Assembly (NCBI RefSeq): GCF_900116715.1 | Contig: NZ_FPBM01000002.1 | Span: 536,589 to 600,588 of the forward strand | Source of the DNA: Polaromonas sp. YR568 | GTDB taxonomy: Bacteria > Pseudomonadota > Gammaproteobacteria > Burkholderiales > Burkholderiaceae_C | DNA: 64,000 bases | Reading direction: 5' to 3' | Shown here: piece by piece, positions 7,638 to 34,359 of the stretch | Position numbering within the stretch: the first letter of the stretch is position 1 | How the letters are laid out: every line of letters begins with the position of its first letter | Notes under the pieces: model-generated | The model's input: only the letters and a program-made list of their open reading frames with translations | Told to the model about the DNA's origin: nothing | Databases searched by the model: none | Program-made: the position numbers and the translations under genes

Positions 7638-8375
7638 TCAGCCCATATGCAAGCCGCCGTTGAGCGAGAAGTCCGCGCCGGTGGCGTAGCCGCCTTCGTC
7701 AGAGGCGATCCAGGAAATGATGGACGCGATTTCTTCAGGCTGGCCAAGCCGCTTGGCCGGCACGCCTGCCACGATCTTTTCCAGCACATCGGGGCGAATG
7801 GCCTTGACCATGTCGGTGCCGATATAGCCCGGGCTCACGGTGTTGACGGTCACACCCTTGGAGGCGACTTCTTGCGCCAGCGCCATGGTAAAGCCGTGCA
7901 GGCCAGCCTTGGCGGTGGAGTAGTTCACCTGGCCGAACTGGCCCTTCTGGCCGTTGACCGACGAGATGTTGATGATGCGGCCGAAGCCGGCTTCGATCAT
8001 GCCTTCAATGACCTGCTTGGTCACATTGAACATGCTGTTGAGGTTGGTGGAAATCACCGCGTCCCAGTCGGCCTTGCTCATCTTGCGGAACTGGCCGTCA
8101 CGCGTGATGCCGGCGTTGTTGACCAGCACCGCCACGGGGCCATGCTCGGCCTTGACCTTGTCGAAAGCGGCCACGGTGGAGTCCCAGTCGCCCACATTGC
8201 CCACCGAGGCGTAGAAGGTGTGGCCCAGGGCTTTCTGCTCGTCAAGCCACTTGGTGTAGTCGCGCGTGGGGCCGCAACCCGCCACCACGGTATACCCGTC
8301 TTTGTCCAGCCGCTGGCAGATGGCGGTTCCGATGCCGCCCATACCACCCGTGACGTACGCTACTTTCTTTGCCAT
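7638..8375 (-). CDS. phaB: Acetoacetyl-CoA reductase
   Basis: NADPH-dependent reductase that turns acetoacetyl-CoA into (R)-3-hydroxybutyryl-CoA, the monomer for polyhydroxybutyrate. 245 residues, the usual length. SDR features: TGGMGGIG cofactor loop (9-16), NNAG (86-89), and the Ser-Tyr-Lys triad with S139, Y152 and K156 (NYSTAKAG). Residues around the GKFGQ-like loop (QKGQFGQVNY) match the PhaB group rather than FabG. Third gene of phaC-phaA-phaB; a terminator follows immediately. Confidence 0.95.
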   Translation of the reverse strand: MAKKVAYVTGGMGGIGTAICQRLDKDGYTVVAGCGPTRDYTKWLDEQKALGHTFYASVGNVGDWDSTVAAFDKVKAEHGPVAVLVNNAGITRDGQFRKMSKADWDAVISTNLNSMFNVTKQVIEGMIEAGFGRIINISSVNGQKGQFGQVNYSTAKAGLHGFTMALAQEVASKGVTVNTVSPGYIGTDMVKAIRPDVLEKIVAGVPAKRLGQPEEIASIISWIASDEGGYATGADFSLNGGLHMG

Positions 8376-8458
8376 AACTCTCTCCTTGATTTTGTGAATT
8401 CTTAAAACCGTTGAATTTCTTGAACGCTTGAACTATTTGAGCTGCCTTCTTGCGGTGC

Positions 8459-8507
8459 GCTATTGATTTAATAGCTGCTTACGCACAATTCATGCCCGCC
8501 AGAGGCT
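8459..8507 (+). repeat. Short dispersed GCTAT/ATAGC repeat, copy R1
   Basis: Begins with the imperfect inverted repeat GCTATTGATTTAATAGC (8459-8475), then a TGCTTACGCAC block and ends near AGAGGCT. It lies in the 146 bp gap between phaA and phaB. Related pieces are at 30197, 38903, 48941, 50402, 52485 and 55673. The rest of the gap (8395-8440) is a run of TTGAA-like words with no clear role. Confidence 0.7.
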
Positions 8508-8521
8508 GTTCTACCTGATAT

Positions 8522-9700
8522 TCAGCGTTCCAGTGTGAGGGCAACCCCCATGCCACCGCCAATGCACAGGCTGGCGATGCCTTTTTTCGCATCGCGTTTG
8601 GCCATCTCATGCAGCAAAGTCACCAGGATGCGGCAACCGGACGCGCCAATGGGGTGGCCGATGGCAATCGCACCGCCGTTCACATTGACCTTGCTGGTGT
8701 CCCAGCCCATTTCCTTGTTGACCGCGCAGGCCTGCGCCGCAAAGGCTTCATTGATTTCCAGCAGGTCCAGGTCTTGCGCCTTCCAGCCGGCGCGCTGCAG
8801 GGCCTTGGTGGATGCGGGAACCGGGCCCATGCCCATGTAGGCGGGGTCCAGGCCCGTGGTGGCGTAGCTGGCAATGCGCGCCAGCGGCTTGAGGCCCAGG
8901 GCCGCAGCCTTTTTGGCCGTCATCACCATCACGGCGGCCGCGCCGTCGTTCAGACCCGATGCATTGCCGGCCGTCACACCGCCGGCCTTGTCAAACGCCG
9001 GGCGCAGGCCCGCCAGGCCTTCGGCGCTGGTCTTGCGGTTAATGAATTCGTCAGCGGCAAACACCACCGGGTCGCCCTTTTTCTGGGGAATGGTGATGGG
9101 GATGATTTCATCCTTGAACTTGCCGGCGTCTTGCGCGGCCGCGGCTTTGGTCTGGCTGGCCAGGGCCAAGGCGTCCTGCGCTGCACGGTCAATGTTGTAT
9201 TTCTTGGCCACGTTTTCGGCGGTGATGCCCATGTGGTACTGGTTGTAAACGTCCCACAGACCGTCGACGATCATGGAGTCGATCATCTTCCAGTCACCCA
9301 TGCGCTGGCCGTCGCGCGAACCGTTGAGCACGTGCGGAGCAGCGCTCATGTTTTCCTGGCCGCCGGCGATCACGATTTCGCTGTCGCCCGTGGCCACAGC
9401 CTGCGCCGCCAGCATGACGGACTTCAGGCCCGAACCGCAGACCGCGTTGATGGTCAGGCCAGGAATGCCGTTGGGGAAACCTGCCTTGATGACAGCCTGG
9501 CGCGCCGGGTTCTGGCCCACACCGGCCGTCAGCACCTGGCCCAGGATGACTTCGCCCAGTTGGTCGGCGCTCAGGCCCGAACGCTCCAGCACGCCCTTGA
9601 TGACTGCGGCGCCGAGTTCAGTGGCCGGAATCTTGGCCAGCGAGCCGCCGAATTTGCCCACTGCGGTACGGCCGGCTGCAACGATAACGATGTCTTCCAT
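8522..9700 (-). CDS. phaA: Acetyl-CoA acetyltransferase (beta-ketothiolase)
   Basis: Condenses two acetyl-CoA into acetoacetyl-CoA, the first step of PHB synthesis. 392 residues, typical. The nucleophilic Cys is C88 (NAVCGSGLKS), with the catalytic His at about 349 (GHPIGASG) and second Cys at about 379 (SLCIGGGMG), the complete biosynthetic thiolase set. It lies between phaC and phaB on the same strand; the 93 bp gap to phaC contains a small CCGGAT/ATCCGG hairpin (9776-9792) without a T-run, which could mark RNA processing rather than termination. Confidence 0.95.
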   Translation of the reverse strand: MEDIVIVAAGRTAVGKFGGSLAKIPATELGAAVIKGVLERSGLSADQLGEVILGQVLTAGVGQNPARQAVIKAGFPNGIPGLTINAVCGSGLKSVMLAAQAVATGDSEIVIAGGQENMSAAPHVLNGSRDGQRMGDWKMIDSMIVDGLWDVYNQYHMGITAENVAKKYNIDRAAQDALALASQTKAAAAQDAGKFKDEIIPITIPQKKGDPVVFAADEFINRKTSAEGLAGLRPAFDKAGGVTAGNASGLNDGAAAVMVMTAKKAAALGLKPLARIASYATTGLDPAYMGMGPVPASTKALQRAGWKAQDLDLLEINEAFAAQACAVNKEMGWDTSKVNVNGGAIAIGHPIGASGCRILVTLLHEMAKRDAKKGIASLCIGGGMGVALTLER

Positions 9701-22663: not shown

Positions 22664-23914
22664 ATGAACACCTTCTTCTCTTCAAAGCGGCGCGCGCTTC
22701 AAGCCCTGCTGTCGTTTACCTTGCTGCTGGCCGGCGCCTCTGCACAAGCAGCCGATACTGGTGTGTGGACACCCAGCTGGACCGCCAGCCCGCAACCCAT
22801 CTGGGGTAGCAGCTTTGTGCTGCCGCTGGGCCTTCCCGCCACGCTGCAGGATCAAACCGTGCGCCAGACCGTGCGGGCCAGCGTAGGCGGCTCGCGCGTG
22901 CGCATCGTGCTGTCTAACGAGTACGGCTCGCAGGCTTTACAGGTTGGCGCGGCGCACATCGCCCCCGTAGACGGAACCGGCAAGGCATTGACCTTTGGCG
23001 GCCAGCCGGCGGTCACTGTGCCGGCAAATGCCGTCGTGATGAGTGACCCGGTCGAGATGGCCGTTGCACCGCTAGGCCGCCTGTCGGTCAGCCTCTACTT
23101 TCCGCAGACGACGCCGCTCACGACCATTCACTGGGACGGCCTGCAGCCCGCGCAGATCACGGCAGGCAATGCCGTGAGCGCGAACGCCCTCAAAGCCGAC
23201 AGCACGGTGAACAGCCGCCTCTTCCTTAGTGCCGTGCTGGTGGAGGCCGCGCCCGGCACGCGCACGGTGGTAGCTTTCGGCGACTCGATCACCGACGGTG
23301 CAGCGTCCACGCCCGCTACCGACCAGCGCTGGCCGGACTTTCTGGCGCGGCGCCTGGCCGGGCAAAACGTGGCGGTGCTCAATGCCGGCATCTCGGGCGG
23401 GCGCGTGCTCAAAAACCACATGGGCATGAATGCACTGGCCCGCTTTGACCGCGATGTGCTGGGCCAGCCCGGCATCGCCAGCGTGGTGCTGCTCATGGGC
23501 ATCAACGACATCAGCTGGCCCGGCAGCACTTTTGAGCCGGACGAGCAGGCCACGCAGGCCGAGGCGCTGATTGCCGGTTACCGCCAGTTGATTGCGCGCG
23601 CCAAAAGCCGCGGCGTGCGCATCGTGGGCGCCACTCTGACGCCTTTTGAAGGCGCGCTGACCATGCCGGGCTCACCGATTGCGAATTACCACAGCCCCGC
23701 AAAAGACACTGTGCGCCAGCGCATCAACGGCTGGATACGCGGCAGTGGCGAATTCGATGCGGTGCTGGATTTTGATGCGGTGGTGCGTGACCCGCAGAAC
23801 CCGCTGCGCATCCTGCCCGCCTATGACTCGGGCGACCATCTGCACCTGGGCGATGCGGGCAACAAGGCTGTTGCCGAAGCTATAGCCCTGAAGCTGCTGC
23901 TGGGCGAACGCTAG
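22664..23914 (+). CDS. Secreted SGNH/GDSL hydrolase
   Basis: 416 residues with a signal peptide ending after ASAQAA (about residue 30). An N-terminal beta-rich region (31-190) precedes the SGNH domain: block I GDSITDG with nucleophile S208, block II in NAGISGGRV, block III GIND, and the C-terminal DHLHLGDAGN supplying Asp and His. Probably a periplasmic or secreted esterase/lipase acting on an acylated carbohydrate or ester. Its last four bases overlap the convergent GntR gene. Confidence 0.9.
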   Translation: MNTFFSSKRRALQALLSFTLLLAGASAQAADTGVWTPSWTASPQPIWGSSFVLPLGLPATLQDQTVRQTVRASVGGSRVRIVLSNEYGSQALQVGAAHIAPVDGTGKALTFGGQPAVTVPANAVVMSDPVEMAVAPLGRLSVSLYFPQTTPLTTIHWDGLQPAQITAGNAVSANALKADSTVNSRLFLSAVLVEAAPGTRTVVAFGDSITDGAASTPATDQRWPDFLARRLAGQNVAVLNAGISGGRVLKNHMGMNALARFDRDVLGQPGIASVVLLMGINDISWPGSTFEPDEQATQAEALIAGYRQLIARAKSRGVRIVGATLTPFEGALTMPGSPIANYHSPAKDTVRQRINGWIRGSGEFDAVLDFDAVVRDPQNPLRILPAYDSGDHLHLGDAGNKAVAEAIALKLLLGER

Positions 23915-24633
23915 CCGCCAACTACCAGGCGCAAACCAGGCATCAGGCTTTCGGTTTCGGCGCGCCGCTGCAGCGCCATGCGCATATTCATCTGCGCGAC
24001 TTCAGTGTGCTCCACCGCCAGCGCCTGGGCGCGCGCGCCCTCACCCGCCTTGAGCGCCGCAAACAGCATGTGGTGCTGGCGGTGCGCGTAATGCATCCAG
24101 TCGCGGTCTTGCTCCAGCGTCGACTGCATGGGCAGCATGGCCGATGCCGAGGCAAAGGGCAGTTTGTCGTTGAGCTCGATGGCACGCTGCAGCGCGCGGT
24201 TGCCGCTGGCCTCGAGGATCAGCGCGTGAAAGCGGTCGTTCATGGCGGCATAGGCCGCGTAGTTGTCATAGCCCAGCGGGTTGGCGGCCAGCGCGCGGTC
24301 GCCTTCATCCAGGCATGACTGCAAATCCAGCTGCAACTGGCGTGACACGCCGTGCTCAGCCACCAAGCGCGCCGCCATGCCTTCAAGGTGGCCGCGCACC
24401 GCAATCGCATCAGCCACTTCGCGCGGCGTGAACTGGCGCACCAGGTATTTGCCGGTGTCGTTGGCTTCAACCAGGCCCTCCTGCTCCAGCGTGACCAGCG
24501 CGGCCCGCACCGGCGTGCGCGAGGCGCCCAGGCGTTCGGCCAGTTGCTGCTCGGCCAGGCGCGCGCCGGGCTCAAACTCGCCGCGCAGGATCAGGTCGCG
24601 CAACTGCATCAAAACGGTTTCTTGCAAGTTCAT
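23911..24633 (-). CDS. GntR-family regulator, FCD (FadR/VanR) subfamily
   Basis: 240 residues: GntR winged HTH at 1-70 (ILRGEFEPGARLAEQQLAERLGASRTPVRAALVTLEQEGLV) and an all-helical FCD ligand-binding domain with metal-binding His/Asp positions (DRFHALILEASGN and the AHRQHHMLFAALKAGE helix). Divergent from the Rieske-GS operon, so it is most likely its repressor, with operator at 24663-24672. FCD regulators commonly sense small organic acids. Confidence 0.92.
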   Translation of the reverse strand: MNLQETVLMQLRDLILRGEFEPGARLAEQQLAERLGASRTPVRAALVTLEQEGLVEANDTGKYLVRQFTPREVADAIAVRGHLEGMAARLVAEHGVSRQLQLDLQSCLDEGDRALAANPLGYDNYAAYAAMNDRFHALILEASGNRALQRAIELNDKLPFASASAMLPMQSTLEQDRDWMHYAHRQHHMLFAALKAGEGARAQALAVEHTEVAQMNMRMALQRRAETESLMPGLRLVVGG

Positions 24634-24662
24634 GGCGCAGAATGTACACTGAATTTTAATTT

Positions 24663-24672
24663 CGGTATACCG
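24663..24672. promoter_or_regulatory. GntR operator candidate
   Basis: Perfect palindrome CGGTATACCG in the 90 bp gap between the divergent GntR gene and the Rieske operon, with a second GTAC word (TGTACACTG) 10 bp to its left. FCD-type GntR regulators typically bind short GT-N-AC palindromes of this form. Confidence 0.65.
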
Positions 24673-24723: not shown

Positions 24724-26136
24724 ATGAACGCTGAACAAAACGAGTTGTTGACCCGCATCACGCCGGGCACGCCCTGCGGCAAGCTGCTGCGCCAGTACTG
24801 GCAGCCCGCCGCGCTGGTCGATGAGTTCAACCCGGCGCTGGACCCGCGCATGGAGATCCGCCCGGTCAAAGCCATCAAGCTGCTCGGCCAGAACCTAGTG
24901 CTGTTCAAGGATGCATCCGGCGCCTGGGGCCTGCTGGACCGCGACTGCGCGCACCGCGGCGCCGACCTGTCTTTTGGCCGCCGTGAAAGCGCCGCGCAAG
25001 GCGGCGGCCTGCGCTGCCCCTTTCATGGCTGGAAGTTCGCCACCGACGGCCGCTGCCTGGAAACACCGGCCGAACCCACCGGCAGCAAACTCTGCGAGCG
25101 CATACGCCAGCGCAGCTACCCCGTGATTGAGAAAGCCGGCGTGCTGTTTGCCTGGCTGGGCGACGAAGGCAGCACGCCACCGCCCTTCCCCGCCTTTGAC
25201 TGCTTTGCCGCGCCGGCCACGCACAGCTTTGCCTTCAAGGGTTTGTGGAACGCCAACTGGCTGCAGGCTTTTGAGGTGGGCATTGACCCGGCACACCCGT
25301 CCTTCTTGCATCGGTTTTTGCAGGATGATCCTCTAGCCGAAATCGGCGACAACCCGGCGGGCAAGCAGTTTCGCAGCGCCAGCGCCGGCAGCAAGGACGG
25401 TGAGCAGTGGCCGATGACGCGCATCATGCGCGAGTTCGCCCAGCCCGACATCAGCTTTGAGACCAAGCCCTGGGGCATGCAGCTGACCGCGCTGCGCGCC
25501 ATGACCGACAAGCTCACCCATGTGCGCGTGACCGACGCGATATTCCCGGCCACCTTTGTGATTCCGCTGTCGGAAACCATGACCATCACGCAGATGCACG
25601 TGCCGGTGGACGACACCCACACCTACTGGTACACCTTCTTCACCAGCTTTGCCGGCCCGCTGGACCGCGAGAGCATGCGCGCGCAGCGCCAGCAGTTCAT
25701 CGCCCTGCCCGACTACATCCCCAAGGCCGGCCGTCACAACAACTGGGGCTTTAACGCCGAAGAGCAGATGAGCACCACCTATCTGGGCATGGGTGAAGAA
25801 GACATCAATGTGCACGACCAGTGGGCGGTGGAAAGCATGGGCGCGATTCAAGACCGCACACGCGAACACCTGGGCACCTCCGACAAGGTCATCATGGCCA
25901 ACCGGCGTGTGCTGCTCAAGGCTATTGAGACGGTGCAAAACGGCGGTGTGGCGCCCGGCATTGCCGACCCCGCGCTGGCCGCGGAGATGACCGGCCCGGA
26001 CACGGTGGACGGCATTGCGCCGGCCGGCGAATGGGCGCAGTGGTGGCAAACCACCGCCCGCGCCAAACGAGAAGGCGCGCCCTGGCTCAAGGCCAAAGCC
26101 GCCGCCGGCACACCCAGCACCGCTACGCTGCCATGA
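24724..26136 (+). CDS. Rieske [2Fe-2S] aromatic ring-hydroxylating oxygenase, large subunit
   Basis: 470-residue oxygenase of the phthalate 4,5-dioxygenase/vanillate demethylase (single alpha-subunit) type. Rieske ligands: C75 and H77 (CAHRG), C98 and H101 (CPFHGW). The mononuclear iron site is in the helix NWLQAFEVGIDPAHPSFLH, with D188, H191 and H196 expected to bridge and bind iron. No beta-subunit gene is present, consistent with this class. First gene of a four-gene operon; its stop overlaps the next start as ATGA. Ferredoxin is encoded two genes later, reductase is not. Substrate unknown. Confidence 0.92.
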   Translation: MNAEQNELLTRITPGTPCGKLLRQYWQPAALVDEFNPALDPRMEIRPVKAIKLLGQNLVLFKDASGAWGLLDRDCAHRGADLSFGRRESAAQGGGLRCPFHGWKFATDGRCLETPAEPTGSKLCERIRQRSYPVIEKAGVLFAWLGDEGSTPPPFPAFDCFAAPATHSFAFKGLWNANWLQAFEVGIDPAHPSFLHRFLQDDPLAEIGDNPAGKQFRSASAGSKDGEQWPMTRIMREFAQPDISFETKPWGMQLTALRAMTDKLTHVRVTDAIFPATFVIPLSETMTITQMHVPVDDTHTYWYTFFTSFAGPLDRESMRAQRQQFIALPDYIPKAGRHNNWGFNAEEQMSTTYLGMGEEDINVHDQWAVESMGAIQDRTREHLGTSDKVIMANRRVLLKAIETVQNGGVAPGIADPALAAEMTGPDTVDGIAPAGEWAQWWQTTARAKREGAPWLKAKAAAGTPSTATLP

Positions 26137-27617
26137 GCGGCTTTGCAGCGCAATGCGGCGTGCATGACGCCGCAAGGCAGGCGGCGCTGGCCGATGCCGT
26201 GCGGCGCATCGAGGCGCGCGGACTGGAATTGGTGCGCTTTGCCTGGTGCGACCTGCACGGCATGCTGCGCGGCAAGACGCTGGTAGCCTCGGCCGCCGCG
26301 GAAGCCATGACGGGCGGCGTGGGCATGGTGAGCACGCTGCTGCTTAAAGACACCGCCGACCGCACCGCTTACAAGGTGTTTGAAGCCGGTGGCGCGGCCG
26401 AACTGCCGGGCTTTGAATTTGGCGGCAACGTGATGCTGCTGGCTGACCCGGCGAGCCTGAAGGAATTGCCCTGGGCCGACAAAACCGGCTGGCTGCAATG
26501 TCAGCCCTGGTTTCCCGACGGCAGCCCGGTGGCCTTTGACACACGCCGGGTGCTGCAAACTGCGCTCGCCAAGCTGGCTAAAGCCGGCTACGGCATGAAG
26601 TGCGGGCTGGAGATTGAGTTCCATATTTACCGCATCGGTGAAAACGGCAACACGCCCCAATTGGACCCGGAGCTGGCCGCCTGGCCGGGTTTGCCGCCTG
26701 AGGTCAGCATGATCCACCCGGGCTACCACCTGCTGTCGGAGCAATGGGTGGACATGGCCGAGGAGCCTTTGCGCATCGTGCAGCGCACCGCGCAAGCGCT
26801 GGGCCTGCCGCTGCTGTCGCTGGAGATTGAGCTGGGCCCCAGCCAGGTCGAAGCAGTGTTCGATGCGACCGACGCATTGGCCGCCGCCGACAACATGGTG
26901 CTGTTTCGCAGTGCGGTAAAGCAAGCTTTGAGGCGTGCCGGTTACCACGCCTCCTTTATGTGCAGGCCGCCCTTTCCGAACATCATGTCCAGCGGCTGGC
27001 ATTTGCACCAGTCGCTGGTCGACCTGAAAACCGGCGCCAACCTGTTCAAGCGCGCCAACCCCGCAACAGGAAGCACGCCCACCGACGCGCAATACACGCT
27101 GTCGGAAGTCGGCGAGCAGTACCTGGCCGGCCTGCTGGCGCATGCGCGCGGCATGACGGCGTTTTGCACGCCCACCATCAACGGCTTTGGGCGCTTTCGG
27201 CCCAATGCACTGGCGCCGCAATCCATTTTGTGGGGCCGCGACAACCGCGGCGCCATGCTGCGCGTGGTCGGCCAATGCAACGACAACAGCACGCGCATCG
27301 AAAACCGCCTGGGCGAGCCGGCGGCCAATCCCTATCTCTATCTGGCGTCGCAGATCTATGCCGGGCTGGACGGCATGGCCCGCCGCCTGAAAGCTCCGCC
27401 GGCGACTGACGCGCCGTATGGGTCCGCCACGGAGAAAATCCCCACCAGCCTGGGTGAGGCGCTGGACGCGTTAAAAGCCGACGCAGCCTTGACGGCCGCC
27501 TTCGGCGACACTTTCGTCCGTTATCTCGCACGCATCAAGCAGGCCGAAATCGACCGCCATGCCGAAGCCGAAGACAAGGACGACTGGCAGCGCCGTGAAT
27601 ATTTCAGCCGTATCTAA
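26133..27617 (+). CDS. Glutamine synthetase-like ligase (probable gamma-glutamyl-amine synthetase)
   Basis: 494-residue GS-family enzyme. Active-site elements are intact: metal Glu pair E160/E162 (GLEIEFH), EIELGPSQVE (231-240), ammonia/phosphate-site His in SGWHLHQS (290/292) and the Arg-Glu-Arg set STRIENRLGEP (388-392). The usual NSYKR...PG block is replaced by NGFGRFRPNALAP (350-362), as in GS-like enzymes that ligate glutamate to amines (gamma-glutamylputrescine, isopropylamide or anilide synthetases). Translationally coupled to the Rieske gene, which argues for joint action on one substrate. Not a housekeeping GlnA: no adenylylation Tyr region is seen. Confidence 0.88.
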   Translation: MSGFAAQCGVHDAARQAALADAVRRIEARGLELVRFAWCDLHGMLRGKTLVASAAAEAMTGGVGMVSTLLLKDTADRTAYKVFEAGGAAELPGFEFGGNVMLLADPASLKELPWADKTGWLQCQPWFPDGSPVAFDTRRVLQTALAKLAKAGYGMKCGLEIEFHIYRIGENGNTPQLDPELAAWPGLPPEVSMIHPGYHLLSEQWVDMAEEPLRIVQRTAQALGLPLLSLEIELGPSQVEAVFDATDALAAADNMVLFRSAVKQALRRAGYHASFMCRPPFPNIMSSGWHLHQSLVDLKTGANLFKRANPATGSTPTDAQYTLSEVGEQYLAGLLAHARGMTAFCTPTINGFGRFRPNALAPQSILWGRDNRGAMLRVVGQCNDNSTRIENRLGEPAANPYLYLASQIYAGLDGMARRLKAPPATDAPYGSATEKIPTSLGEALDALKADAALTAAFGDTFVRYLARIKQAEIDRHAEAEDKDDWQRREYFSRI

Positions 27618-27625
27618 GATCACTC

Positions 27626-27964
27626 ATGACCACCATCACTGTCAATTTAATAGCATCAAGTGGAAGCACCACACAGATAAGCGGCAAGATTGGGAAAAGC
27701 CTGATGGAAGCGGCCGTCTCGGCCGGCATTGACGGCATAGCCGCCGACTGCGGCGGGCTGCTGACCTGCGCGACATGCCACGTGTATGTGCAGGAACCTT
27801 TTGCCTCGGATGCCAGCCTCCTGCCGCCACCCGACGGAGAAGAACTGGGCATGATCGAATTCACCGCCGCACCGCGCAAACCCACCAGCCGCCTGAGCTG
27901 CCAGATCAAGCTCACGCAAGCGCTGGACGGTTTGGCGGTAGAGTTGCCGTCTACCCAGTATTAA
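27626..27964 (+). CDS. [2Fe-2S] ferredoxin, adrenodoxin/putidaredoxin type
   Basis: 112-residue electron carrier. Cluster ligands C42, C48, C51 (CGGLLTCATC) and C92 follow the C-x5-C-x2-C-xn-C pattern of adrenodoxin-type ferredoxins; the acidic DGEELGMIEF stretch is the usual partner-docking region. Placed 8 bases after the GS-like gene, it presumably passes electrons to the Rieske oxygenase. Codons 6-12 coincide with a piece of the short GCTAT-type repeat (27641-27660). Confidence 0.93.
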   Translation: MTTITVNLIASSGSTTQISGKIGKSLMEAAVSAGIDGIAADCGGLLTCATCHVYVQEPFASDASLLPPPDGEELGMIEFTAAPRKPTSRLSCQIKLTQALDGLAVELPSTQY

Positions 27965-27982
27965 CAACCGACAGGTGCCTAC

Positions 27983-28285
27983 ATGATTCTCGAACTCGCC
28001 GACATCCGCATCCACCCCGGCCAGCAAGCCGCCTTTGACGAAGCCATCCAGCGCGGCATCAAGGACGTGATTTCCAAGGCCAAGGGCTTTCAGGGCTACA
28101 AGGTCAACAAAGGCATTGAAAGCCCCGAGCGCTACATCCTGCAGATCTTCTGGGATACGCTGGAAAACCACACCATCGACTTCCGCCAGTCGCCCGCCTT
28201 TGCCGACTGGCGCGCCATCGTCGGGCCGTTTTTTGCAGGGCCTCCTACGGTGGAGCATTTCGACTTGCTGGCCAAATCGAACTGA
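27983..28285 (+). CDS. Antibiotic biosynthesis monooxygenase (ABM) domain protein
   Basis: 100-residue protein with the ABM/dimeric alpha-beta barrel pattern: LADIRIHPGQQAAFDEAI, FQGYKVNKGIESPERYILQIFWDT and a final RQSPAFADWRAIVGPFF. Such proteins are cofactor-free oxygenases, isomerases or stress factors. Last gene of the Rieske operon, followed by a strong terminator. It could process a reactive product of the oxygenase; no direct evidence. Confidence 0.85.
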   Translation: MILELADIRIHPGQQAAFDEAIQRGIKDVISKAKGFQGYKVNKGIESPERYILQIFWDTLENHTIDFRQSPAFADWRAIVGPFFAGPPTVEHFDLLAKSN

Positions 28286-28369: not shown

Positions 28370-28813
28370 TTACTTGGCATCGTTCTCGTGGCCGGCGACC
28401 AGCTTGGTCAGCAAGACGCCGAGCTGCACCCGCTCCTCTTCCGCCAGGGGCGCCAGGATGCGCTGCTGGGTCTTGCCGACCGCCCGCTTCATCTGCAGGG
28501 CAACTTTTTCACCTTCCGGCGTGTTCCAGAGCAGCTTTCGGCGCTTGTCGCGCGGGTCGGCTTCGCGCTTGACCCAGCCCTTGGCCTCCAGGCGGCCGAT
28601 GACGGAGCCGAAGGTAGCCGGGTCAAAGGCGACGCGGCCCGACAGCGTGATCTGGTCTTCGCCGGGGTCGTCCATCAGCGCATTGAGGATGGCAAATTGC
28701 ACGGGGGTGGCGTCGAAACCTGCCGTCTCCTCCATGAAGATTGCCACTGCCAGCTGCTGCGCGCGCCGGATCAGGTGCCCGGGCGCTTCTCCGAAGTTGA
28801 AACTTTTTGCCAT
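28370..28813 (-). CDS. MarR-family transcriptional regulator
   Basis: 147-residue winged-helix regulator: LSGRVAFDPATFGSVIGRLEAKGWVKREADPRDKRRKLL contains the recognition helix and the MarR wing motif (DPRDKR). Divergent from the 3-hydroxybenzoate/gentisate operon; the 14 bp palindrome at 28870-28883 lies between them. Aromatic-acid-responsive MarR repressors (such as NicR or HpaR types) have this arrangement, so it is probably the local repressor, relieved by 3-hydroxybenzoate or gentisate. Confidence 0.92.
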   Translation of the reverse strand: MAKSFNFGEAPGHLIRRAQQLAVAIFMEETAGFDATPVQFAILNALMDDPGEDQITLSGRVAFDPATFGSVIGRLEAKGWVKREADPRDKRRKLLWNTPEGEKVALQMKRAVGKTQQRILAPLAEEERVQLGVLLTKLVAGHENDAK

Positions 28814-28938: not shown

Positions 28939-30132
28939 ATGGCACACACTTCTCCCCTCATCATCTCGGGCGGCGGCATCGGCGGACTGGCCGCGGCCAT
29001 GGTGCTTGCCCAGGACGGCCACCCGGTGACACTCCTGGAGCAGGCGGCGAGCTTCGGTGAAATCGGCGCCGGCATCCAGCTGGGCCCGAATATCTTTCGC
29101 ATGTTCGACTACCTGGGCCTGACCGAAGCCATCAACCGCGTGGCCTTCTTCCCGCCCGGCCTGGGCATGAACGATGTGCGCACCGGCGAGAAAGTGGTGC
29201 GCGTGCCGCTGGGCGATGTGGCCCGCGCCACCTACGGTTTTCCTTACGGCGTGATCTACCGCGCCGACCTGCACCAGGTGTTCCTGGACGCCTGCCGCGC
29301 CCAGCCCAACGTCACCCTGCGCACCAGCGCCAAGGTGGAGTCGTTTAACCAGACTGCCGACGGCGTGACCGTACAGCTTGAAGGCGGCGAGGTCGTTGAA
29401 GGCCGCGCGCTGATAGGCGCCGACGGCATGTGGAGCCGCATCCGCGAAGCGGTGGTGGGTGACGGCAAGCCCCGCGTGTCGGGCCATATCGCCTACCGCG
29501 CGGTGCTCAAGCGCGAGGATGTCCCTGCCCATTTGTGGAGCGACGACGTGCTGCTCTGGGGCGGCGAGAAGACCCACCTGGTGCACTACCCGCTGCGCCG
29601 CGGCGAGCTGTTCAACCTGGTGGCCGTCTTTCACAGCAATAAATACGACGAAGGCTGGAACACTTTCGGCGACACCGCCGAGCTGACTGAGCGCTTTGCC
29701 GACGCCTGCCCGCAGGTCAAAGAGCTGCTGGGCAAGATCGAAACCTGGAAGATGTGGGTGCTGTGCGACCGCGAACCGGTGAAGAACTGGACCGACAAGC
29801 GCGTCACCCTGCTGGGCGACGCCGCCCATCCCATGCTGCAATACCTGGCCCAGGGCGCCGGCCAGGCGATTGAAGACGCGGTGGTGCTGCGCGAAGCGCT
29901 GCGCTTTACCCGCGGCGATGTGGAAAAGGCCTTCCAGAAATACCAGCAAAAGCGCTACCTGCGCACCGGCCGCGTGCAGCTGACCGCCCGTTTTTATGGT
30001 GATATTTACCATGCGGCCGGCGTGCAGCGCGAGCTGCGCAACCAGATGTTCCAGAGCGGCACCGAGAGCGCGGGCTTTGCGGGTCTGAAGTGGATGTACG
30101 ACGGGATCGAGCCGTCAAAACTGTTCCAATGA
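28939..30132 (+). CDS. FAD-dependent monooxygenase, 3-hydroxybenzoate 6-hydroxylase-like
   Basis: 397-residue single-component flavin hydroxylase, expected to convert 3-hydroxybenzoate to gentisate with NADH and O2. FAD motifs: GGGIGGLAAAMVLAQDG near the start, the middle DG motif (LIGADGMWSRIREAV) and GDAAHPMLQYLAQGAGQAIEDA near residue 295. The QYLAQGAGQ wording and neighbours (gentisate dioxygenase, fumarylpyruvate hydrolase) favour 3-hydroxybenzoate over salicylate as substrate. Start ATG 28939; the longer frame crosses the operator and is rejected. First gene of the operon. Confidence 0.92.
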   Translation: MAHTSPLIISGGGIGGLAAAMVLAQDGHPVTLLEQAASFGEIGAGIQLGPNIFRMFDYLGLTEAINRVAFFPPGLGMNDVRTGEKVVRVPLGDVARATYGFPYGVIYRADLHQVFLDACRAQPNVTLRTSAKVESFNQTADGVTVQLEGGEVVEGRALIGADGMWSRIREAVVGDGKPRVSGHIAYRAVLKREDVPAHLWSDDVLLWGGEKTHLVHYPLRRGELFNLVAVFHSNKYDEGWNTFGDTAELTERFADACPQVKELLGKIETWKMWVLCDREPVKNWTDKRVTLLGDAAHPMLQYLAQGAGQAIEDAVVLREALRFTRGDVEKAFQKYQQKRYLRTGRVQLTARFYGDIYHAAGVQRELRNQMFQSGTESAGFAGLKWMYDGIEPSKLFQ

Positions 30133-31167: not shown

Positions 31168-32547
31168 ATGGCCTCGATCACTGAACCCGCACGCACCTTG
31201 CCGGTCTACGGCGAGTTTGACGTCGTCGTGGTCGGCGGCGGACCTGCTGGCCTGGCCGCCAGCGTCAGCGCCGCACGGCATGGCGCGCGCACGCTACTGG
31301 TAGAGCGTTACGGCTTTCTCGGTGGCATGGGCACAGCCGGCGGCGTCACCAACTTCGCAGGCGTCTATGGCCGCAAGAACGGCCAGATGCACCAGGTGGT
31401 GCGCGGCGTGGCCGACGACCTGCTGCAACGCATAGACGCACTGGGCGGCCTGAACGCGCCGCAAGACGGCATGCAGAGCCGCATCCGTGTGCGCTCTTAT
31501 GACGTGTCGGCCTACAAATGCGCGGCGGACCAGCTGCTGGTGGCGGCTGGCGTTCACATTCTTTTTCACGCCTGGGCCTCCGCTGTGGTGATGGACGGTG
31601 ATTGCATCGGCGCCCTGGTGGTCGAAACCAAATCCGGCCGGCAGGCGATACGCGCGTCGCGTTTCATCGACTGCTCAGGCGACGCCGACGTGGCGAACTT
31701 TGCCGGCGTGCCGTTTGAGCTGGGCGACGGCCATGGCAGCGCGCTGTTTCCTTCGACGATGTTCCGCGTCGGCCATGTCGATGCGCCGCGCGCACTGGCG
31801 GCCGTGGGAGAGTTCAAGGCTATCAACACGCTGATGGCCGAGAGCCAGGCGCGCGCGCCGGGCCGCTACAAATTCCCACGCGAAGGCGCGATCCTTCGGC
31901 CCCAAAAGAACCCCACCGAGTGGCGCGCCAACGTCACGCAAATCCGCAACGCCCAGGGCACGGCCATGGACGCCACCGACGCGCGCCAGCTCAGCGAAGG
32001 CGAGCTTGAAGGCCGGCGCCAGATCACCGAATACTTCCGCTTTCTGCGCAGCGAGGTGCCGGGCTTTGAAGACTCCGCCATCGTGGACATCGCACCGCAA
32101 GTCGGTATCCGCGAAACGCGCCGCATTCAGGGCCTCTATGCCTTGAGCGGCGAAGACATCCTCTCCTCGGCCCGCTTTGACGATGCCATCGGCATCAACG
32201 CCTGGCCGATGGAGCTGCATGCCGATGGCCGTATCGACTGGCAATTTCCGCGCAATGTAGATGCCGCGCAAGGCCGCGCCTACAACGACCTGCCCTGGCG
32301 CATGCTGGTGCCCCAGGGCGTGGCCAACCTGCTGGTGGCGGGCCGCTGCGCCTCGATGACGCATGAGGGCCAGTCGGCCGCACGCGCCAGCGGCGGCTGC
32401 TTTGTGATGGGCCAGGCCGCGGGCACGGCGGCGGCGATGCTGTCTGCCGGGCAATCTTTTTCCGATACAGACGTGAAACAACTGCAGCAGTTGCTCACGC
32501 ATGACGGCGTGTACTTCGACAACGATTTCGACAACGGCGATCTTTAA
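31168..32547 (+). CDS. FAD-dependent oxidoreductase (FAD_oxidored family), role unknown
   Basis: 459 residues with an N-terminal dinucleotide fold ([29 protein letters not shown]) and the FAD_oxidored features [35 protein letters not shown] and, near the end, [36 protein letters not shown]. Proteins of this family are poorly characterised and usually annotated only as FAD-dependent oxidoreductases. It lies inside the gentisate operon, 8 bases after the Bug gene, yet the textbook 3-hydroxybenzoate route needs no such enzyme. It may handle a side substrate or a precursor such as a partly reduced ring. No signal peptide. Confidence 0.85.
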
Positions 32548-32569: not shown

Positions 32570-33667
32570 ATGGACATGACGCCCCCACCCACCCACGGCC
32601 AGAGCACAGCGCCCAACAGCGCCGCGCGCAAAGCTTTTTACGATGCGATTTCGGCACACAGCATGACGCCGCTATGGGAAGTGCTGCATGCCCTGGTGCC
32701 GCAGTCGCCCAGCACGCCGTGCCAGCCGGCGCTGTGGAAGTACGCTGACGTGCATCCCTTCCTGATGAAGTCGGGCGAACTGATCACCGCTGAAGAAGCG
32801 GTGCGCCGCGTGCTGATCCTGGAGAACCCGGGCCTGCGCGGGCAGTCGTGCATCACGCAGTCGCTGTACGCGGGCCTGCAGGTCATCATGCCGGGCGAAA
32901 TCGCGCCCAGCCACCGCCACACGCAAAGCGCGCTGCGCTTTGTGGTGGAAGGCCATGGCGCCTTCACCGCGGTGGACGGCGAACGCACACAAATGAAACC
33001 GGGCGACTTCATCATCACCCCGAGCTGGACCTGGCACGACCACGGGCACGAAGGCCGCGTGGAATCCGACACGCCCGTGGTCTGGCTGGACGGCCTGGAC
33101 ATTCCCATGCTGCGCTTCTTTGATGCGGGCTTTGCCGAAAACGGCACGGCCAAGCAACAAGAGGTCACCAAGCCCGAAGGCATCAGCACCCACCGCTATG
33201 GCGCCAACATGCTGCCGATGCGTTATGACGCACCCTTCGGCGGCAAGACCTCGCCCATCTTCAGCTACCCCTACGACCGCACGCGCGAGACGCTGCACCA
33301 GCTGGAAACCCATGCCGACATCGATGCCTGGGACGGCGTCAAGCTGCGCTATGTAAACCCGGCCACCGGCGGCTCGCCCATGCCGACCATGGCGACCTTC
33401 ATGCAGCGCCTGCCGGCGGGCTTTGCGGGCAAGCCCTGGCGGCAGACCGACGGGGCTGTTTTCAGCGTGGTCGAAGGTACCGGTTCCGTCAGCATTGAGC
33501 AAGGCGGCAAGACTTCGACTTTCGAGTTTGGCCCCAGAGACCATTTTGTGATTCCGTCGTGGCACACTGCGCAATTGCGTTCGGCGCAGGGTTGTGTGCT
33601 GTTCAGTTTTTCAGACCGCCCGGTGCATCAGGCATTGGGCATACACAGAGAAGAAAGGTTGTCATGA
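32570..33667 (+). CDS. Gentisate 1,2-dioxygenase
   Basis: 365-residue bicupin that opens gentisate between C1 and C2 to maleylpyruvate using Fe(II) and O2. The N-terminal cupin carries the iron ligands: H115 and H117 ([15 protein letters not shown]) and H156 (WTWHDHGH). The second cupin (about 260-350) has [13 protein letters not shown]. Length fits the family (about 340-370). Start ATG 32570, shortly after the FAD gene; the stop overlaps the next start (ATGA). Confidence 0.95.
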
Positions 33668-34359
33668 GTTTTGTTATCACCCCACCGGCCGCAGTGTCCG
33701 TCCCCGTCGTCGGCACCAAAGACCGCTTCCCGGTCAACCGCATTTACTGCGTGGGCCGCAACTACGAAGAGCACGCCAAGGAGATGGGTTTCACCGGCCG
33801 CGAGCCGCCCTTCTTCTTCCTCAAGCCCGCTAATGCCGCCGTCGTGGTAGACGCCGGCGCCACCGGCACCATTCCCTACCCGTCGCTCACCAAGAACCTG
33901 CACCATGAGATTGAACTGGTCGTGGCCATCGGCACGGGCGGCAAAAACATCAAGGCGGCAGACGCGCAAAAGCACATCTATGGTTACGCCGTCGGCCTGG
34001 ACATGACGCGCCGCGACCTGCAGGGCGAGATGAAAAAGCAGGGCCGCCCCTGGTGCATCGGCAAGGCCTACGACGACTCAGCGCCCATCGGCCCCATCAC
34101 ACCCGCGGCCCAGGCCGGTGACGTGAACAACGCCGAGATCTATATCCAGGTCAACGGCAAGGACCGCCAGCGCAGCAATGTCTCCAAGCTGATCTGGAAT
34201 GTGGCTGAAACCATCGAGCACCTGTCAGCCGCGTGGGAGCTTCAGCCCGGCGACCTGATCTACACCGGAACACCCGAAGGCGTGAATGCCGTGGTGTCGG
34301 GTGACACCATGGTGGGCGGTGTAGCGGGTTTGACCACGCTGACCGTCAAGGTTGCATAA
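33664..34359 (+). CDS. Fumarylpyruvate hydrolase (FAH family)
   Basis: 231-residue FAH-fold hydrolase, expected to split fumarylpyruvate into fumarate and pyruvate. Family landmarks: INCVGRNY-like [15 protein letters not shown], metal ligands in [21 protein letters not shown], and the C-terminal YTGTPEGV. Translationally coupled to the gentisate dioxygenase, which fixes its role more firmly than sequence alone; homologous FAH proteins also act on other diketo acids. Last gene of the operon, followed by a terminator. Confidence 0.93.

Follow-up and report, generated by a model that had tools for sequence, protein, structure and literature searches.

A putative Sad-type arylamine oxidation operon in Polaromonas sp. 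YR568, with a tunnel lysine in its glutamine-synthetase-like ligase

We analysed a 64,000-nucleotide stretch of the Polaromonas sp. YR568 genome (RefSeq assembly GCF_900116715.1, contig NZ_FPBM01000002.1, positions 536,589 to 600,588), hereafter the window. Four open reading frames (ORFs), all on the plus strand, encode, in this order, a Rieske oxygenase (24724-26136, 470 amino acids), a glutamine synthetase (GS)-like ligase (26133-27617, 494 amino acids), a [2Fe-2S] ferredoxin (27626-27964, 112 amino acids) and an ABM protein (27983-28285, 100 amino acids). Pfam searches confirm the domains. The starts of the Rieske and GS genes are internal to longer mechanically called ORFs, and their overlap, ATGA at 26133-26136, is seen directly in the sequence. 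The four-gene set described in the initial annotation is thus correct, while its word “fused” was too loose, since the genes overlap and there is no fusion. Neither a reductase, nor a glutaminase-like or gamma-glutamyl hydrolase gene, nor a Rieske beta subunit was found in the cluster using the ORF list and Pfam, in agreement with the absence of glutaminase-like and reductase partners noted initially. We assign a probability of roughly 0.6 to the reading that these genes form a Sad-type arylamine oxidation operon (so called after the sad operon of Hydrogenophaga intermedia PBC), in which an amine is glutamylated and its ring then dioxygenated, with 4-aminobenzoate as a less certain substrate. 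The operon and its upstream region are laid out as follows (the 80 related loci and the inferred copy of the sad operon are described below):

23911-24633, minus strand: divergent regulator of the GntR/FCD family (Pfam GntR and FCD; matched at 32 of the 80 loci; 79% identical to its counterpart beside the inferred sad operon)
24643-24671, plus strand: promoter-like element TGTACA-N17-TATACC, containing the palindrome CGGTATACCG at 24663-24672
24724-26136, plus strand: one-subunit (phthalate-type) Rieske oxygenase, SadA-like (Pfam Rieske and LigXa_C)
26133-27617, plus strand: GS-like arylamine:glutamate ligase (GoaS type), SadB-like (Pfam Gln-synt_C, 243.7 bits)
27626-27964, plus strand: [2Fe-2S] ferredoxin, SadD-like electron carrier (Pfam Fer2; 60% to inferred SadD)
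27983-28285, plus strand: ABM-domain protein, whose gene closes the operon in this lineage (Pfam ABM)

The nearest solved relative of the window ligase by sequence is NpaA1 (8WWU, E=5.5e-104), the 1-naphthylamine glutamylating enzyme (PMC11335346). A FastTree phylogeny was built for 104 GS sequences, with one of the 80 loci (L159) left out as too short. The window ligase, 79 loci, the inferred SadB and a protein of Novosphingobium RL4 (L009) form one clade with a support of 1.0, and the PuuA and GlnA proteins of E. coli, as well as the PuuA-like and GlnA copies of the window's own genome, lie outside it; the deeper nodes of the tree are weak (0.62 and 0.80). The flap glutamate of GlnA, which we take to be the ammonium-site residue, is replaced by leucine in the window ligase, as it is in NpaA1, and the loop of the window ligase reads NGFGRFRPNALAP. 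An ordinary GlnA was considered and rejected on the grounds of tree placement, residues and the presence of a separate GlnA copy in the genome. The protein branches apart from GSI and carries the N-terminal loop motif around the amine pocket that is described for glutamyl-organic-amide synthetases (GoaS) in PMC11335346. Judging by its sequence, it belongs to the GoaS enzymes and is far from GlnA.

In NpaA1, the amine tunnel is formed by F75, F86 and W235 at the bottleneck and also by M81, V201, E232 and E234 (PMC11335346). The corresponding residues of the window ligase are K72, F83, L234, T78, L200, E231 and E233, respectively; the phmmer and MAFFT alignments concur in the placement of K72, and E231 and E233 are conserved. 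Lysine occupies the site of NpaA1 Phe75 in all 89 ligases adjoining a one-subunit Rieske gene (79 loci, the window, the inferred SadB and eight plasmid relatives) and in none of the six ligases whose Rieske neighbour has two subunits; in these six the residue is Phe, His or Val. The lysine is also present in relatives from Nitratireductor, Palleronia and Pseudooceanicola; relatives from Streptomyces and Nostoc have Phe. Thus, in the set examined, a lysine at a tunnel site splits the one-subunit-linked from the two-subunit-linked ligases, which is new here.

The solved relatives nearest to the window Rieske protein are one-subunit phthalate-type enzymes, and the assignment to this type made at the outset is confirmed by Pfam and by the alignments, which reveal the CxH...CxxH cluster motif, a D-x2-H-x4-H motif and a third Asp ligand. 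Residues were transferred by alignment with isophthalate dioxygenase (IPDO), with a chain offset of 23 derived in the analysis (9INA appears once in PMC12445078, from which the residue roles are also taken). The Rieske cluster ligands are C75, H77, C98 and H101, the bridging residue is D188, and the iron ligands are H191, H196 and D365; R268 aligns with the carboxylate-binding Arg of isophthalate and phthalate dioxygenases (R234 in IPDO). All nine residues are identical in 77 of 77 aligned Rieske sequences (eight chosen ones and those of 69 of the 80 loci, 11 being excluded for matches that were short or interrupted by a stop). D377 was also considered as the third iron ligand and rejected, since the IPDO alignment gives D365, which is the same in 77/77; Asn is found at the D377 position in Novosphingobium resinovorum SA1 and four loci.

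The 80 loci are the best 80 of at least 575 named relatives, mostly Comamonadaceae (genome contigs). Their neighbouring genes were detected by tblastn at E≤1e-5; some loci end at contig edges and a few matches are weak and distant. The nearest named relatives among the matches listed are from Polaromonas (90-92% for Polaromonas sp. CF318 and a metagenome-assembled genome). A Rieske gene lies directly upstream of the GS gene in every locus (80/80), and a ferredoxin match was obtained in 58. Among 299 sampled genomes of the family, the window's own included, a GS-like protein (E≤1e-60) is encoded in 67, the Rieske protein (E≤1e-90) in 65 and both in 64. A comparison of coordinates shows the two genes next to each other on a single contig in 63 of these 64 genomes, so that the expectation of a conserved pair is borne out. 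In one genome (G291) the Rieske gene stands alone and runs off its contig, and the genomes with the GS-like protein only are G065 and G095 (43-44% identity) and G166 (a fragment). The sole exception among the 64, G009, has the pair on two contigs, with Rieske and ferredoxin on one (L213, 6610-8372) and GS and ABM on the other (L214, 6674-8558). On the latter contig, genes for maleylacetoacetate isomerase (maiA), 3-hydroxybenzoate 6-monooxygenase and a FAD oxidoreductase are close by. The split in G009 is what one would cite for the view that ligase and oxygenase each have a substrate of their own, their adjacency reflecting shared regulation only. We consider this very improbable given the adjacency of the pair in 63/64 genomes and 80/80 loci and the fact that the oxygenases of aniline and 1-naphthylamine oxidation act on what the ligase produces (PMC11335346). 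With the tree off GlnA and the pair conserved, the GS-like protein is probably an amine ligase paired with the Rieske oxygenase, as the initial annotation had proposed by analogy with aniline dioxygenase.

In 17 of the 80 loci, many of them from Limnohabitans, the unit adjoins genes recognised by eye as miaB or ffh, and nrd genes come after these; seven of the 80 have an acyl-CoA-ligase-like gene on the far side of miaB. Loci of this kind include L129, L134, L135, L137, L140, L141, L143, L144, L145 and L148 (GS at ca. 8001-9480), and the setting in many Limnohabitans genomes looks like one fixed chromosomal site.

The sad operon of H. intermedia PBC encodes the dioxygenase SadA, the glutamine synthetase SadB and a ferredoxin. 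It was found by transposon mutagenesis, is responsible for the conversion of 4-aminobenzenesulfonate to 4-sulfocatechol, and was described as fairly conserved across all Hydrogenophaga genomes published up to that time; its original substrate, presumed to be a natural analogue, was left open, and the 4-sulfocatechol gene set was kept only in H. intermedia strains among Hydrogenophaga (PMC5632844, section 12 for the last two statements). One genome, G306, belongs to the same genus as G114, taken for Hydrogenophaga, and we infer that it is H. intermedia and that it holds a copy of the sad operon. Its only GS-like match at 1e-50 lies inside a Rieske-GS-ferredoxin operon, and its GS clusters with that of Hydrogenophaga borbori in the tree. 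One small contig of G306 carries a homologue of maleylacetate reductase (46% to that of SA1) as well as an amidohydrolase and a cycloisomerase-type protein, the last two recognised by eye; we take these genes for a portion of the 4-sulfocatechol set. Since maleylacetate reductase is matched in 63 of 67 genomes of G114's genus, it is too common to serve as a sole marker of 4-sulfocatechol degraders.

The window operon and that of G306 contain a one-subunit Rieske oxygenase, a GS-like ligase and a ferredoxin in the same order, and the window GS groups with the inferred SadB outside GlnA and PuuA. Identities are 67% for Rieske, 65% for GS, 60% for ferredoxin, 79% for the GntR protein and 84% for the fumarylacetoacetate-hydrolase (FAH) family protein. 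The inferred sad copy has the same divergent GntR gene, with FAH and dctP nearby; unlike the window, its stretch has no ABM match and, unlike the sad operon, the window unit adjoins 3-hydroxybenzoate/gentisate genes. The identities of the three core proteins, together with the putative 4-sulfocatechol genes of G306, make orthology between the window operon and the sad operon very probable, ABM being an addition in the window. This makes the finding less novel, and the “uncharacterised route” proposed initially does not stand as worded, because the very probably orthologous operon has been reported for 4-aminobenzenesulfonate (PMC5632844).

Orthology to the inferred sad operon, and a related pair in SA1, could be taken to mean that the window operon encodes a 4-aminobenzenesulfonate (sulfanilate) 3,4-dioxygenase in the literal sense, as in H. 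intermedia PBC. Sulfanilate is mainly man-made, and the operon is present in 64 of the 299 sampled family genomes. PMC5632844 itself favours a natural analogue; we regard the literal assignment as improbable.

Among other known systems, the sulfanilate region of N. resinovorum SA1 plasmid pSA3 (L004) resembles the window in having a Rieske gene followed by a GS-like ligase with the tunnel Lys (54% and 47% identity, respectively). Unlike in the window, the genes for ferredoxin and FAD-oxidoreductase are located apart, on the other strand, there is a glutaminase gene, a protein of the 5-carboxymethyl-2-hydroxymuconate isomerase (CHMI) family comes right after the ligase, and maleylacetate reductase is a neighbour. 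CHMI-like small proteins follow the ligase in three relatives (L004, 9497-9838; L203, 7442-7795; L210, 7362-7700), where they stand in the place of the ferredoxin and ABM of the window. The aniline/chloroaniline-type systems (AtdA, TdnQ and DcaQ, which we presume to be the gene names of the plasmid copies) and the 1-naphthylamine system NpaA likewise combine a GS-like arylamine ligase with a Rieske oxygenase, at 38-43% GS identity. Unlike the window, they have a two-subunit Rieske (6/6), a reductase annotated nearby (5/6), an amidotransferase-like protein beside the ligase (4/6) and Phe, His or Val in the tunnel. Membership in the AtdA type was rejected for want of a two-subunit Rieske and of a linked amidotransferase-like gene and reductase in the cluster. 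Phthalate dioxygenase (PDO) and IPDO of C. testosteroni KF1 share with the window oxygenase the one-subunit architecture, the Rieske and iron ligands and the position of the substrate Arg; we know of no GS partner of either enzyme. PuuA (gamma-glutamylputrescine synthetase) and GlnA share the GS catalytic domain family but are distant in the tree. In Palleronia (L203, 4441-7795), a CehA/McbA-type metallohydrolase gene precedes a Lys-type ligase in the place of the Rieske gene, and a CHMI-like protein of 117 amino acids and pca genes follow, an arrangement in which the ligase may serve another purpose.

If the window operon is of the Sad type, the GS-like ligase would couple the amino group of an acidic aromatic amine to the gamma-carboxyl of glutamate at the expense of ATP, and Lys72 at the tunnel would help to accept the acidic group. 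In the aniline system, too, a GS-like enzyme first ligates glutamate to the amine (PMC4539516). With electrons from the ferredoxin and a reductase encoded elsewhere, the one-subunit Rieske oxygenase would then dioxygenate the ring carbon bearing the nitrogen and its neighbour. The resulting diol, being unstable, would shed its nitrogen, in all likelihood as glutamine, and a catechol-type acid would remain; were this so, a hydrolase would be dispensable. For 4-aminobenzoate the products would be protocatechuate and glutamine, the look-alike reaction being that of 4-aminobenzenesulfonate to 4-sulfocatechol. What we observed is the set and order of the genes, their conservation, the residues and the tree; we infer each of these reaction steps, the first one from homology. 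With regard to missing partners, the window's genome encodes a PuuD-like C26 protein beside the PuuA-like gene, away from the cluster. No match to the glutaminase family PF04960 was found in the genome in a family search in which 4 of 14 controls were positive, and no close relative there of the linked FAD reductase of the plasmid clusters was found (the best match is partial, at 33%).

Several lines of evidence bear on the substrate. The copies linked to sulfanilate, those of G306 (inferred) and of N. resinovorum SA1, a 4-aminobenzenesulfonate degrader (PMC5632844), belong to separate clades within the Lys-type ligases, so that acceptance of para-acidic anilines is probably old. The gene for 4-hydroxylaminobenzoate lyase (PnbB) lies near the pair in plasmid clusters of the SA1 clade (L005, L010, L011 and L209; in L209, PF16155 at 201 bits). 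PnbB is found in 26 plasmid records, in eight at 60% identity or more, and at least six of these eight have the ligase within 12 kb; there is no PnbB match in the SA1 and RL4 stretches examined. In Palleronia, the Lys-type ligase is near the protocatechuate 3,4-dioxygenase genes pcaHG, and pcaHG are encoded elsewhere in the window's genome. Taken together, the Lys site, the conserved putative promoter/operator described below and PnbB in the sister clade, which is likewise a new observation, point to para-acidic arylamines as the substrate class. PnbB in the SA1 clade and the pcaHG genes of Palleronia and of the window's genome suggest, more specifically, the conversion of 4-aminobenzoate to protocatechuate. 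No work on a 4-aminobenzoate route via a Rieske oxygenase and glutamine synthetase was found among open-licence papers. An alkyl amine, also offered at first as a substrate, finds no support, as the relatives and the pocket residues appear to point to acidic arylamines.

A number of observations weigh against a Sad-type arylamine operon or against parts of that reading. The Lys72 correlation tracks one gene family and does not stand for many independent events; a Fisher value for it, which disregards shared descent, is given no weight. The second acid-binding residue of IPDO, H257, is Gln290 in the window Rieske protein (Gln in 77/77), and R268 could hold the glutamyl carboxylate instead of a ring acid. 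PnbB is found in 0 of 80 loci (flanks of up to 8 kb), and the Palleronia stretch read has no annotated Rieske gene. The pair is split in G009. In the 17 loci with miaB or ffh neighbours the context is hardly informative on the pathway, though the acyl-CoA-ligase-like gene in seven loci means that the setting there may still be catabolic. The identity of G306 with H. intermedia is itself deduced. Finally, the operon in the window has genes for 3-hydroxybenzoate and gentisate turnover as its neighbours, a pathway into which a product of the catechol type would not flow:

28370-28813, minus strand: MarR-family regulator, convergent with the operon and divergent to the 3-hydroxybenzoate/gentisate genes (Pfam MarR)
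28942-30132, plus strand: 3-hydroxybenzoate 6-monooxygenase (NF006021, 567.8 bits; cut-off 459)
31168-32547: FAD-dependent oxidoreductase within the gentisate gene set (PF12831, 395 bits; 17 of 80 loci)
32570-33667, plus strand: gentisate 1,2-dioxygenase (TIGR02272, 522.5 bits; cut-off 442.1)
33559-34359, plus strand: FAH-family protein (PF01557, 186 bits), overlapping the preceding gene, start codon provisional

The FAH-family protein, for which no NCBIfam model reached its cut-off, is possibly a fumarylpyruvate hydrolase. TRAP transporter genes lie downstream, beyond its gene, and a gene passing the maiA cut-off is located ca. 6 kb away, on the other side of the operon. Such surroundings raise the question of whether the same two-step chemistry might act on a substrate, e.g., 3-aminobenzoate or another meta-substituted amine, that feeds the adjacent gentisate pathway, with ABM and FAH acting downstream. 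The genes for 3-hydroxybenzoate 6-monooxygenase, gentisate dioxygenase and FAH downstream, and maiA on the other side, would suit such a route, and the gentisate synteny recurs in several genera. Dioxygenation at the C-N carbon, however, would yield an ortho-diol, not gentisate; between the two units stands a MarR gene in the opposite orientation, and gentisate dioxygenase is matched in only 18 of the 80 loci (3-hydroxybenzoate 6-monooxygenase in 19, MarR in 22, FAH in 29). FAH occurs near the pair with neither gentisate dioxygenase nor 3-hydroxybenzoate 6-monooxygenase detected in 13 of the 29 FAH loci, which cuts both ways, since FAH may then belong to the amine pathway. We therefore think a gentisate-feeding route unlikely and retain the Sad-type reading.

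The distribution of ABM follows the same island. It is matched in 20 of 80 loci, in 19 of these together with MarR or gentisate-island genes, and nine further loci have MarR or gentisate genes with no ABM match. ABM is thus outside the conserved core and goes with the gentisate island; its candidacy as an essential partner was rejected because of its presence in 20/80 loci only, and the idea that it treats the product of the oxygenase is not borne out.

The region between the GntR and Rieske genes was compared in 54 sequences, 49 of them distinct. The element TGTACA-N17-(T/G)ATAC is present in 45 of the 49, and GG(G/T)ATACC in 43; the copy of CGGTATACCG at 24663-24672 is the only exact one within the 64 kb. 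The conserved element is a probable promoter whose predicted -10 region overlaps a predicted GntR operator, and the divergent GntR protein is the probable cognate repressor of the operon, which it would control via CGGTATACCG over the -10 region. We count this predicted promoter/operator among the new findings.

Plasmid copies of the ligase, among the matches listed, are nearly always annotated as “glutamine synthetase family protein”, and Lys72 is a residue by which annotators may be able to separate ligases for acidic arylamines from those for aniline. PMC5632844 leaves open what the sad operon acts on in nature, and Lys72 offers a handle on this question. Tentatively, the Lys72 ligase and the one-subunit Rieske oxygenase might constitute a distinct, widespread system for acidic aromatic amines, in nature 4-aminobenzoate from folate turnover, in which the aryl nitrogen would be passed directly to glutamine and thereby scavenged; the use of sulfanilate would have been recruited from this system, and a secondary loss of the lysine may have occurred in ligases of the aniline type.

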